DNA of 64,000 bases from the NCBI RefSeq assembly GCF_001428255.1, contig NZ_LMRW01000023.1, positions 372,309 through 436,308 on the forward strand, written 5' to 3'. Shown here piece by piece: positions 22,706-30,570 of the stretch. This DNA is from Agromyces sp. Soil535 (GTDB lineage Bacteria; Actinomycetota; Actinomycetes; Actinomycetales; Microbacteriaceae). Made by a program: the position numbers and the translations under genes. A model generated the notes under the pieces. The model was given only the letters and a program-made list of their open reading frames with translations, did no database searches and was not told where the DNA came from. Every line of letters begins with the position of its first letter. The stretch's first letter is position 1.

Positions 22706-23899
22706 TCAGAGCCCGGCGGCCGCGCGGAGGTCGTCGACGCGGTCGAGCCGCTCCCAGGTGAAATCGGGCAGCTCGCGGCCGAAGTGGCCGTAGCTCGCGG
22801 TCTGCGCGTAGATCGGCCGGAGCAGGTCGAGGTCGCGGATGATCGCCGCAGGCCGCAGGTCGAAGACCTCGCGGATGGCGCCGATGATGCGCTCTTCGGG
22901 CACGTGGGCGGTGCCGAACGACTCGACGTAGAGCCCCACGGGTGAGGCCTTGCCGATCGCGTAGGCGACTTGGAGCTCGAGGCGGTCGGCGAGCCCGGCC
23001 GCGACCGCGTTCTTCGCGACCCATCGCATCGCGTACGCAGCGGAACGGTCGACCTTCGAAGGGTCCTTGCCGCTGAACGCGCCACCGCCGTGGCGGCTGG
23101 AGCCGCCGTAGGTGTCGATGATGATCTTGCGCCCGGTGAGGCCGGCATCGCCCTGCGGGCCACCGATCTCGAACCGCCCCGTGGGGTTGATGAGCACGGC
23201 GAGATCGGGGCGGGCGAGGTCGACCCGGTCGAGCACGGGCCGGATGACGAGCTCCTCGACCTCGGCCCGCAGCTGCTCGGTCGACACGGCCGGCGAGTGC
23301 TGGGTCGACAGCACCACGGTCTCGATGGTGCGCGGCACCTGGCCGTCGTAGCCGATCGTGACCTGGGTCTTGCCGTCTGGGCGCAGGTAGTCGAGCTCGC
23401 CCTGCTTGCGCACCTCGGCGAGCCGCTCGGAGAGCCGGTGCGCGAGCCAGATCGGCACGGGCATGAGCTCTGGGGTCTCGCGGGTGGCGTAGCCGAACAT
23501 GATGCCCTGGTCGCCCGCGCCCTGCATGTCGAGCGCGTCCTCGCTCGCGCGCTCGCGCGCCTCGAAGGCGTGGTCGACGCCCTGCGCGATGTCGGGCGAC
23601 TGGCCGCCGATCGACACCGAGACGCCGCAGGAGCGGCCGTCGAACCAGACGTCGGAGGAGTTGTAGCCGATCGACGTCACCCGATCCCGCACGATCGCCG
23701 GGATCTCGACGTATCCAGACGTCGTCACCTCGCCTGCGACATGCACGAGCCCCGTCGTGACGAGCGTCTCGACCGCGACCCGGCTGTGGGGGTCGACGGT
23801 GAGCAGCGCATCGAGGATCGAGTCCGAGATCTGGTCGCAGAGCTTGTCGGGGTGGCCCTCGGTGACGGATTCGGAGGTGAAGAGTCGGAGTGCGCTCAT
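22706..23899 (-). CDS. metK: S-adenosylmethionine synthetase
   Basis: Makes SAM from methionine and ATP. 397 residues, normal length. Motifs are [16 protein letters not shown], the flexible-loop [12 protein letters not shown] and the glycine-rich [16 protein letters not shown]. The ATG overlaps the coaBC stop (ATGA). No SAM riboswitch is possible in the 4-nt overlap; transcription probably comes from upstream. Confidence 0.97.
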
Positions 23900-25152
23900 G
23901 TGGTGGGCTCGTGTTCCTTCGTGGTGTCGGCGGCGGACGCCGCGGTCGTCGATTCCGAGACAACCACGTCGAGGATGTCATCTGCCACCGACGCCTTGGT
24001 TCCGTGTGCTCGTGTGACGATCTCGCCGTCGCGTCCGATGACCACGACGCGGTTCTCGTCGCTCGCGAACCCCTCATGCCAGCCCACACGGTTGATCACG
24101 ATGAGGTCGGCGCCCTTGGCCTCGAGCTTGGCGCGGCCGAGGGCGAGGAGCCGGTCGTCGTCGGGCTCGGTCTCGGCGGCGAACCCCATGAGGAGGGTGC
24201 CGTCGTGCGGAGCGCCGCCGAGGCCCGCGAGGATGTCGGGGTTGCGTACGAGCTCGAGCGTCATGCCGCCGTCGCCCTCGTCCTTCTTGAGCTTCGACTC
24301 GCTCACGTCGGCAGGCCGGTAGTCGGCCACTGCCGCCGCCATCACGACCACGTCGGCGCCCTTCGCGGCATCCGTCACCGCCTGCTGCAACTCGAGGGCG
24401 GTCGACACGCGGCGGATGTCGCACCCCTCGGGGGCGGCGATCTCGAGGTTCGCGGCGATCAGCGTCACCTCGGCGCCCCGCGCGCGAGCGGCCTCGGCGA
24501 TCGCTACGCCCTGTTTGCCGCTCGAGCGGTTGCCGAGGAATCGCACGGGGTCGAGCGGCTCGCGGGTACCGCCGGCGGTCACGACCACCCGGCGGCCGGC
24601 GAGGTCGCGACGAGCGGATGCCGCGGCTCGCTCGAGCGCGGCGGCGGCGATGACCTCGGGCTCCTCCATGCGGCCGGGGCCGCTGTCGGCACCCGTCAGC
24701 TGGCCGACGGCGGGACCGACGATCGTGACGCCGCGCGAGCGCAGCGTGGCGACGTTGGCCTGGGTCGCCGGATGCCGCCACATCTCGGTGTGCATCGCCG
24801 GCGCGATGACGACGGGCGCCTCGCTCGCAAGCACGGTGTTGCCGAGAAGGTCGTCGGCGAGGCCCGTCGCGAGCTTTGCGATCGTGTTCGCCGTGGCCGG
24901 CGCGATCACGATGAGGTCGGCGGCCTGGCCGATCGCGACGTGGCGCACCTCGGCGACGCCCTCGTAGAGGTCGGTGTGCACGGGATTACGCGAGATCGCC
25001 TCGAGGGTGGGGCGGCCGACGAATCGCAGCGCGCCCTCAGTCGGCACGACGTGCACGTCGTGCCCGGCGAGCACCAGCGCGCGGACGACGCCGACGGCCT
25101 TGTACGCCGCGATGCCGCCGGTGATGCCGACGACGATGTTGAGCGGCGACAT
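23896..25152 (-). CDS. coaBC: Bifunctional phosphopantothenoylcysteine synthetase/decarboxylase
   Basis: Two consecutive steps of coenzyme A synthesis. 418 residues. The N-terminal FMN-dependent decarboxylase domain (about 1-180) has [15 protein letters not shown], the active-site His in [12 protein letters not shown] and the [11 protein letters not shown] loop. The C-terminal CTP-dependent synthetase (about 185-400) has [20 protein letters not shown] with the conserved nucleotide-binding loop. The last 20 or so residues are low-complexity Ala/Ser/Thr. ATG start, 11 bp after rpoZ. Confidence 0.95.
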
Positions 25153-25163
25153 CCGTGCCGTGT

Positions 25164-25421
25164 TCAGTCGCCGATCGGGCGGAGCCGGAGCTTGTCCTCG
25201 TTGATCTCGTGCAACGCCACCGAGAGGGGCTTGTCGTCGATCGAGGAGTCTACGAGCGGGCCCACGTTGTCGAAGAGGCTGCCCTCATGCAGGTCCGCGT
25301 AGTAGTCGTTGATCTGGCGGGCACGCTTGGATGCGAAGATCACGAGCTGGTACTTCGAGTCGACCTTGGAGAGCAGGTCGTCGATGGGCGGATCGATGAT
25401 GCCGGACAGCTTCTCAGCCAT
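25164..25421 (-). CDS. rpoZ: RNA polymerase omega subunit
   Basis: 85-residue omega subunit, which helps assemble beta-prime into RNA polymerase. Conserved features are [31 protein letters not shown] and the acidic C-terminal part. ATG with AAGGAG upstream. The order gmk-rpoZ-coaBC-metK is highly conserved in actinobacteria. Confidence 0.94.
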
Positions 25422-25485: not shown

Positions 25486-26421
25486 TCAACGCCGACCCTT
25501 GCGAGGCCGCATCAAGTCTACGACCTTTTGCGCGGCCTCGCCGACGTCGTGGTTCACGACCCGGTGGTCGAACTCCTCGACCGCCGCCAGTTCGACCCTC
25601 GCGGTCTCGAGGCGGCGCTGCTGCTCGGCAGGGCTCTCGGTGCCGCGGCCGACGAGGCGTCGCACGAGTTCGTCCCAGCTCGGCGGCAGCAGGAACACCA
25701 GTGTCGCCTCGGGCATCGCGCGGCGCACCGAGCGGGCGCCCTGGATGTCGATCTCGAGCAGCACGCTGTTTCCGGCGGCGATGGCGGCCTCGACAGGCCG
25801 GCGCGGCGTGCCGTAACGGAAGGCGTTGTGCACGGTCGCCCACTCGAGGAGCTCGCCCGCCTCGATCATGCGGTCGAACGAGGCGTCGTCCACGAAGAAG
25901 TAGTGCTCACCCTCCACCTCGCCGGGGCGGGGCGGGCGGGTCGTCGCCGAGACGGACAGTCGGACGTCGGGATGGTGCCGCCGGATGTAGGACGCCACGG
26001 TGCCCTTGCCCACGGCGGTCGGGCCGGCGAGCACGACGAGTCGGTCGCCGGTGCCGCCGTGATCGGCCACCCAGTCGGCGACGAAATCGCGCAGGCGCCG
26101 GCGCTGCAGCCGGCCGAGCCCGCCGAGGCGCTTCGACGTCGCGATCGCGAGCTCGGTCATGATGCGAGTGCTCTTGGTCGCGCCGATCGCAGGGATCGAC
26201 GTGAGGAACTCGGGCACGCGAATGCGGCCCTCGACGCCCTCGGGCTCCTCGTAGGCCACACGCAGCACGTCGAGCGGGCTGCGGGCGCCGCTCGCGACGT
26301 CGGCCTTCACCGTCGCGCGGGCGCGTCGCGCCGCCACCGCGGCGCGGGAGGCGGCGACGCGGTCGACCTCAGGCGGGGTGGGGGTGGTCGTCGTGGTCGT
26401 GTCAGGCAACGGCCGCTCCAT
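25486..26421 (-). CDS. gmk: Guanylate kinase with N-terminal actinobacterial IHF domain
   Basis: Predicted 311-residue fusion. Residues 1-19 are a Thr/Pro-rich tail. Residues about 20-113 match the actinobacterial integration host factor m[13 protein letters not shown], a helix-hairpin-helix around [16 protein letters not shown], and [16 protein letters not shown]. Residues about 127-311 are a complete guanylate kinase with P-loop [10 protein letters not shown] (133-142) and [19 protein letters not shown], which makes GDP from GMP. In Mycobacterium mihF and gmk are separate adjacent genes, so fusion is the simplest reading. The ATG at 26421 overlaps the pyrF end by 20 nt; a TTG at 26409 is the alternative. 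Confidence 0.92.
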
Positions 26422-27282
26422 ACTCGTCGACGCGACGCGCGATGGCGTCGGCAAGCCCGTCGGGTCCCGCCATGAGGAGGGAGCGCGACTCGTTCGCCAC
26501 GACACCGGCGGAATAGGAGCCGAAGCGGGCCCGCAGCTCGCGGGGCTCCGCGCCCTGGTGCCCGAAGCCGGGCGCGAGCACTGGCAGGCCCGGTCGCGGC
26601 GGCTCGCCGTCGATGTCGATGCCGGCGGCCGGGAGGTCGGTGGTGGCGCCGAACACGACGCCGATCGAGCCGAGCGCGCGCTCCGCGGCATCCGTCCGCC
26701 CCTGGTTCCAGCCGATGACGCCCTGCGTGATCGCCTGCGCGACCGTGGAGCCCGCGCGGCTCGACTGCTGCAGCACCGCCCGCTGGATCGCCCCGGCCTC
26801 GGGGTTCGAGGTCGCCGCGAGCACGAAGAGGCCCTTGCCGGCCGCCTCGGCGGCGCCCATGACCTGCTCGATGGAGCCGAGGCCCTGGTAGGCGCTGATC
26901 GTCATCGCGTCGGCCTCGAGGCTCGAGCCGGGGCGCAGCCACGCCTCGCCGTAGGCCTCGACCGTCGAGCCGATGTCGCCGCGCTTCACGTCGGCGATCA
27001 CGAGCAGGCCGGCGTCGCGCGCCTCGCCGAGCAGCCGCTCGAGCACGGCATAGCCCGCCGCACCGTGTCGCTCGAAGAACGCCACCTGCGGCTTCACGAT
27101 CCCGATGTGGTCGGCTGCGGCCTCGATGGCGCGCAGCCCGAACTCGCGCACGCCCTCAGCCGAGTCGGGCTGGCCCCATGCCGCGAGCACGGACGCGTGC
27201 GGATCGAGACCGAGGCAGAGGTGGCCATAGGCGGCGAAGACGGCCTCGAGCCGGTCTCCGAAGGGAATCACGCCGACGCCGT

Positions 27283-27286
<4 letters not shown>
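26402..27286 (-). CDS. pyrF: Orotidine 5'-phosphate decarboxylase (type 2)
   Basis: Last step of UMP synthesis. 294 residues, the longer actinobacterial/myxococcal class. The catalytic Lys-Asp pair lies in [10 protein letters not shown], with [11 protein letters not shown] and [10 protein letters not shown] also conserved. The GTG at 27286 overlaps the carB stop (GTGA). The open frame continues far upstream, but that part lies inside carB and is not homologous. Confidence 0.93.

Positions 27287-30569
<3,283 letters not shown>

Positions 30570-30570
<1 letters not shown>

Follow-up and report, generated by a model that had tools for sequence, protein, structure and literature searches.

The window, i.e., the whole stretch of 64,000 nucleotides of the Agromyces sp. 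Soil535 genome that was analysed, harbors on its reverse strand a gene in which a domain of the actinobacterial integration host factor (mIHF/sIHF) is joined to guanylate kinase (Gmk). The features of the locus are the following:

27283..30570 (-), carB, upstream of pyrF (NF003671, 1589 bits)
26402..27286 (-), pyrF, orotidine-5'-phosphate decarboxylase (TIGR02127, 255.2 bits)
25486..26421 (-), longer version of the fused open reading frame, from an upstream ATG, 311 aa; this is the start chosen in the preliminary description, and the residue numbering follows this frame
25486..26409 (-), fused mIHF-Gmk coding sequence, 307 aa, with TTG at 26409..26407 as the most likely start and the stop codon at 25486..25488
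26086..26364 (-), mIHF (actinobacterial IHF, H2TH) domain, residues 20-112
26113..26136 (-), basic motif SKRLGGLG, residues 96-103, aligned to TRRLRGLG of 6TOB
26044..26085 (-), stretch between the two profile matches, residues 113-126
25510..26043 (-), guanylate kinase domain, residues 127-304
26002..26025 (-), P-loop GPTAVGKG, residues 133-140
25164..25421 (-), rpoZ, RNA polymerase omega, the next gene downstream (TIGR00690, 69.1 bits)
23896..25152 (-), coaBC, downstream of rpoZ (TIGR00521, 394.8 bits)
22706..23899 (-), metK, downstream of coaBC (TIGR01034, 550.7 bits)

According to the profile names, the order on this one strand is carB, pyrF, fused gene, rpoZ, coaBC, metK, and the TGA stop codon of pyrF overlaps the start of the fused gene. 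In the fused rows of Microbacteriaceae (n = 119), pyrF lies directly upstream in 117 cases and rpoZ downstream in 109; short loci may explain why these neighbours were not seen in the remaining rows. The order is the same as that of the mihF-gmk-rpoZ neighbourhood of actinobacteria, with the difference that in Agromyces the first two genes are one. The preliminary description had stated that in mycobacteria these are two neighbouring genes, which agrees with the mihF-gmk-rpoZ arrangement of M. tuberculosis in the available passages of PMC6155035; in the same passages, the deletion of mihF needed gmk and rpoZ to be supplied, and this was attributed to polar effects. A table of Streptomyces genes, in the available part of PMC8365161, has as consecutive entries metK, coaBC, omega, guanylate kinase, and integration host factor.

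The identity of the two parts was assessed by means of profile HMMs. The N-terminal part matches NF041260 (mIHF/sIHF) with 70.8 bits (curated cut-off 60), and the C-terminal part matches TIGR03263 (Gmk) with 215 bits (equivalog cut-off 160.45). The original proposal of an actinobacterial IHF fused to guanylate kinase is therefore borne out, both profiles being over their curated cut-offs, the kinase being complete, and the IHF similarity of the first part being clear. The predicted structure of the fused protein matches both DNA-bound sIHF and M. tuberculosis Gmk: in the model, the mIHF part adopts an H2TH fold as in sIHF, and the Gmk part is 52-53% identical to the M. tuberculosis enzyme over the superposed residues. 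The listing of this PDB comparison consists mostly of Gmk chains, and the lack of other folds there carries no meaning. The PHROGs search returned only one family, of guanylate kinases. The fusion model has a pTM of 0.62 and a linker of low confidence; in it, a long helix (104-121) ends within residues 113-126 and is followed by a turn of low confidence (123-125).

The N-terminal part resembles the known mIHF/sIHF proteins (NF041260; Rv1388, SCO1480; 6TOB, 4ITQ, 6BEK) in the profile, in the fold, in the core basic residues, and in the place upstream of gmk/rpoZ. However, the known form is a free protein of about 105 aa, whereas the Agromyces form carries Gmk at its C-terminus; moreover, the known TRRLRGLG is changed to SKRLGGLG and the hairpin GKVKA to GATKS. 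In terms of the basic motif RR-x-R-G-L-G, which reads KRLGGLG here, the first and second basic positions are kept and the third is absent. Since the mIHF part is not free-standing but joined to Gmk, the protein was filed as a fused variant rather than as mIHF itself. The C-terminal part shares with bacterial Gmk (TIGR03263; Rv1389, 1S4Q/1ZNW) a complete kinase domain, the residues of the nucleotide site, and the P-loop (G133-P-T-A-V-G-K139-G140), which is invariant, together with many other Gmk columns, in 54 aligned fused proteins; the difference is the additional N-terminal mIHF domain. NF041260 is typed as "equivalog_domain" by NCBI, and this suggests that its curators had met the mIHF domain within longer proteins.

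The comparison with the closest named relative, Agromyces sp. ISL-38 (L138, 90% identical), revealed that the 97 mIHF codons differ 10, 6, and 29 times at the first, second, and third position, respectively (22 silent and 11 amino-acid changes), and that the 180 Gmk codons differ 9, 9, and 54 times. The third-position excess in the two parts alike points to a selected reading frame in both. The start codons were then compared in 74 fused loci (the window and 73 named ones). Measured from the end of the pyrF stop, an in-frame NTG is located exactly 8 nt upstream in 33/74 loci and exactly 4 nt upstream in 28/74; the two offsets correspond to different frames, so that the joint total is 61/74. 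According to a looser test, any in-frame NTG not more than 25 nt from the pyrF stop, 71-72 of the 74 loci have a start, but this test is weak because 536 of 740 control windows inside gmk contain an NTG too. In the inspected loci belonging to the genus of the window, the start overlapping the pyrF stop is directly readable, and in the window it is TTG 26409. This codon has a GGAG upstream, and a homologous NTG overlaps the pyrF stop in the same-genus relatives, while no SD-like match was found upstream of ATG 26421. Hence, the true start is probably TTG 26409, the ATG being four codons too early; the mIHF domain is complete with either start. The codon-position pattern and the clustering of start codons around the pyrF stop speak for translation into a single chain. 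The same two observations, together with the profile score of the N-terminal part, contradict the possibility that this part is untranslated and that the gene begins at the kinase, which can practically be discarded; internal starts near the kinase are scattered, and the sole recurrent one, a GTG in the first Gmk strand, lacks an SD-like match in most cases.

The genome contains only one NF041260 match over the cut-off. The sole two candidates for a second mihF reach 18.4 and 14.3 bits, against a cut-off of 60, and were rejected; no second mihF over the cut-off is therefore present in the genome, in line with the earlier remark that no separate mihF lies in the window. In the same way, one Gmk match is over the cut-off, and the five others do not exceed 13.6 bits; as the sole Gmk over the cut-off in the genome, the fused protein very likely has GMP kinase activity. 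The genome also encodes one HU-type protein (PF00216, 82.6 bits) and, therefore, another nucleoid protein.

The fusion is not peculiar to the Agromyces genome. In the survey of fused versus split forms, 148 of 150 Microbacteriaceae genomes were matched (the two misses being 75% and 66% complete), and 137 of these 148 have one match across both domains. As for the remaining 11, nine have Gmk without mIHF by profile, one has a frameshift (G009), and one has only pieces that reach the contig ends (G147), in which the mIHF piece runs in frame into Gmk. Two genomes within the 137 (G134 and G066) have one TGA in the match, yet they are fused by the locus profile scan; G133, within the nine, has a match across both domains with two TGA, yet no mIHF by profile. 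Exactly one NF041260 match (E <= 1e-5) is present in 114 of the 120 family genomes that are at least 95% complete, and in 107 of these 114 it is over the cut-off; the other six genomes have none. In a sample of rows inspected by eye, these single matches sit at the fused gmk site. As far as the genome sequences go, in Agromyces and in most sampled relatives the fused protein is the only copy of mIHF and of Gmk. Among the named loci (the window and 80 others, the latter being the best 80 of 506 candidates, a set that leans toward fused relatives), 74 are fused and seven are split, i.e., two Rothia, four Arthrobacter or Pseudarthrobacter, and Pseudolysinimonas kribbensis. By similarity, the named loci point to Microbacteriaceae as the family and to Agromyces as the genus. 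In P. kribbensis (L036/L210, taken as the same genome as G009), gmk is cut off from the mIHF part by a frameshift close to the end of the latter; this frameshift might be real or a sequencing error.

In the nine family genomes without mIHF (L039-L047; genera g11, g14, g66, g71, and g81), a pyrF-like frame is followed directly by gmk, and no other mIHF match over the cut-off was found in these genomes (best 20.1 bits), three of which are less than 90% complete. Their sizes range from 1.1 to 2.4 Mb. In the Gmk tree, g66 and g71 are placed just outside the main family clade, and g11, g14, and g81 sit on long branches in other parts of the tree. What is absent here is a protein reported, in the available parts of PMC6155035 and PMC3724605, as essential for mycobacteria, where it also ranks among the most abundant proteins. 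In one of the nine loci (L040, genome G070), the Gmk frame is preceded by an Ala/Pro/Thr-rich stretch of ~80-90 residues where the relatives have mIHF.

In the survey of the taxonomic order (159 genomes, 11 of them Microbacteriaceae), no stop-free match across both domains was found in other families among the matches listed, and in 37 of the 40 other-family loci examined mihF lies directly upstream of gmk. No mihF stands beside gmk in the three others (L085 and L086, family f4; L093, genome G184, family f3), and no NF041260 match elsewhere, at E 0.01, was found in the f4 genomes G152, G169, and G270 or in G184. The survey of the class (296 genomes) disclosed, among the matches listed, uninterrupted fusions in 29 of the 30 genomes of family f40 (1.2-2.2 Mb; the exception, G536, is split) and in two of the 16 genomes of family f46, both belonging to genus g213. 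In the phylum sample (246 genomes), every listed two-domain match outside Microbacteriaceae has at least one stop. In many split actinobacterial pairs, among the matches listed (L130-L137), mihF and gmk are in the same frame, separated by just one stop, so that the loss of this stop would represent an easy route to fusion.

The tree constructed on mIHF and Gmk of 47 rows contains three fused clades, each beside split relatives, and requires three changes of state. The f40 fusions join the split G536 (97/98), the g213 fusions join the split G509 (100/99), and the fused clade of Microbacteriaceae (100/100) is nested among families of the same order that have the split form (97/81). With the long rows kept, the full Gmk tree gives seven changes of state, which become three once seven long or odd rows are dropped, and the 50-row tree gives two only. 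On the best tree, three separate fusion origins are likely, although not proven: a single event for the Microbacteriaceae and f40 fusions is disfavoured by the 47-row tree, but the AU tests do not reject a joint clade (p 0.171; 0.299 on the 50-row set).

The residues of the mIHF part were compared in 130 fused rows (119 Microbacteriaceae, nine f40, and two g213; some family genomes may occur twice) and in 51 split rows, numbering the positions on the mycobacterial-type row L133. Position 81, within RRLRGLG, is basic in 49/51 split rows versus 1/130 fused ones. At the column of Gly100 of the Agromyces protein (the first G of SKRLGGLG), Arg is found in 47/51 split rows and Lys in two. The Arg of the basic motif is absent across all three fused lineages, and it is kept at position 81 in G536 and G509, the split genomes closest to the f40 and g213 fusions, respectively. 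This position is also not basic in the split L075 and L092, nor in four of 11 further split loci (L221, L222, L223, and L228; two of these four were read from printed sequence), and these six split rows indicate that the loss of Arg does not require fusion. The Arg at position 81 presumably matters for DNA binding, as we take from mutagenesis work on mIHF. Position 62, the hairpin Lys, is not basic in most Microbacteriaceae rows and is basic in 8/9 f40 rows. On the other hand, R15, R18, and Q87 are invariant, K22 is invariant in the fused rows, position 64 is basic in every one of the latter, and position 79 nearly always is; the invariant residues and the basic position 64 suggest that nucleic-acid binding has probably not gone. 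The mean net charge of the mIHF part is 7.9 in fused Microbacteriaceae, 7.4 in f40, and 8.5 in g213, versus 6.2 in the split rows, and a charge that is not lower in the fused rows counts against a weaker binding.

The two halves also differ in their divergence. At a Gmk identity of 75-80%, the mIHF identity is 58.7% for fused pairs of Microbacteriaceae versus 71.7% for split pairs, the pairs not being independent. The ratio of mIHF to Gmk tree length is 1.96 in fused Microbacteriaceae (112 rows, five long ones dropped; 1.88 with them), 1.48 in fused f40 (nine rows), and 1.06 in split rows (51). Using rpoZ as a yardstick, the mIHF part appears faster (4.48 versus 1.85), whereas using pyrF it is unchanged (0.73 versus 0.75) and Gmk is slower (0.37 versus 0.63); the rpoZ figure of f40 (tree length 0.11) looked faulty and was left out. 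Since the two yardsticks disagree, an acceleration of mIHF after the fusion is not claimed; the balance between mIHF and Gmk differs in fused and split rows, and either half may have changed pace. The interpretation put forward in the preliminary description holds in part: the fusion is real, but against a simple reading as a nucleoid protein plus a kinase stand the absence of the Arg in 129/130 fused rows, the greater divergence of mIHF relative to Gmk compared with split pairs, and the nine sampled family genomes that have Gmk without mIHF.

The domain composition, the single copy, the signs of translation in one frame, and the spread across the family can be read from the sequences themselves. 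The explanation that we consider, on balance, probable is that of a housekeeping Gmk that has kept its nucleic-acid-binding mIHF domain in altered form and that was formed by the loss of the intergenic stop. The gene would encode one polypeptide in which a short linker joins an mIHF-type H2TH domain to a complete guanylate kinase, and would have arisen through the loss of the stop between mihF and gmk as adjacent, co-directional genes. The established reaction of Gmk is the phosphorylation of GMP to GDP; the sole copy, the intact P-loop, and the conserved kinase columns suggest that the fused enzyme almost surely does so, presumably by the ordinary reaction, GMP + ATP to GDP + ADP. The mIHF domain might still bind nucleic acid without sequence preference, more weakly or differently than free mIHF, and part of the Gmk of the cell would then ride loosely on the nucleoid. 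In the available parts of PMC3724605 and PMC10028186, the binding of mIHF/sIHF to DNA shows no sequence preference, sIHF reportedly binds as a monomer and recombinant M. tuberculosis mIHF was a homodimer, and M. smegmatis IHF carrying EGFP (msIHF-EGFP) or mNeonGreen allows normal growth; by analogy with the tagged protein, a fused partner need not block the function of mIHF. Since free mIHF is highly abundant, its 1:1 tie to an enzyme should lower the amount of mIHF or raise that of Gmk; mIHF would now be present at the copy number of Gmk, and not as a free, abundant packing protein. A dedicated sensing circuit is not needed for this explanation.

It is unlikely, albeit with an appreciable chance of being correct, that the fusion is the outcome of drift, so that the mIHF part no longer usefully binds DNA and serves Gmk as a structural or regulatory N-terminal domain (folding, oligomerisation, or stability). 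The absence of the Arg at position 81 in all three fused lineages and of the hairpin Lys 62 in most Microbacteriaceae rows would fit such a loss, as would the greater divergence of mIHF relative to Gmk and the nine sampled family genomes whose Gmk has no mIHF part. However, position 62 is not basic in 13/51 split rows either, and in the fused rows R15, R18, K22, and Q87 are invariant, position 64 is always basic, R79 nearly so, and the charge is not reduced. Furthermore, the mIHF part is predicted to fold like DNA-bound sIHF, and the pTM of the model and its low-confidence linker show no sign of a fixed mIHF-Gmk interface.

Going beyond the housekeeping Gmk, one might imagine that a benefit of the link led actinobacteria to fuse mIHF to Gmk on three separate occasions: through the loss of the Arg, the H2TH domain would be retuned and would hold the kinase transiently on the nucleoid, coupling the local supply of GDP/GTP, or the inhibition by (p)ppGpp, to DNA occupancy. 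This would represent a new way to tie the state of the chromosome to guanine nucleotides, but we regard it as quite improbable. The idea of nucleotide sensing advanced in the preliminary description, i.e., that GMP/GDP or (p)ppGpp on the kinase alters the DNA binding of mIHF, or that DNA alters the kinase, is very doubtful; if true, guanine-nucleotide supply would be linked to the nucleoid. The three fusion lineages of the best tree and the retention in 137/148 genomes suggest that the link is tolerated and perhaps useful, and, in the available part of PMC6783271, (p)ppGpp inhibits the Gmk of several phyla, the response depending on contacts with a neighbouring chain. The available part of PMC5686395 states this inhibition for most actinobacterial Gmk, not for that of M. 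tuberculosis. The linker, however, varies in length and sequence, which counts against a tuned mIHF-Gmk interface, and nine of the sampled family genomes lack the mIHF part. Still less credible, and indeed highly improbable, is that one gene gives two products, internal initiation or proteolysis of the linker freeing mIHF or Gmk: in favour of this are the short and variable linker, to which the model gives low confidence, and the internal NTG codons that carry an SD-like match of 4-6 bases at a few loci, but the only recurrent internal start is the above-mentioned GTG, which mostly has no such match.

In a limited literature search, covering mainly titles, abstracts, and a few passages, no published account of an mIHF-Gmk fusion was found. 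Within that literature, the domains and the gene neighbourhood are known, while no mention was found of the fusion as the main form of a family, of its recurrence, or of the motif change that the fused lineages share. Most sampled Microbacteriaceae, common bacteria of soil, plants, and water, possess mIHF only in the kinase-fused form, and some are without it; three fused lineages with the same motif change and the lineages lacking mIHF represent a natural experiment on the need for this protein. An automatic annotation labelling the fusions as "guanylate kinase" alone may hide the nucleoid domain from surveys. Clavibacter is a member of Microbacteriaceae. A 10-kDa "integration host factor", of either mIHF or HU type, is reported in a Clavibacter table in the available part of PMC7839047.
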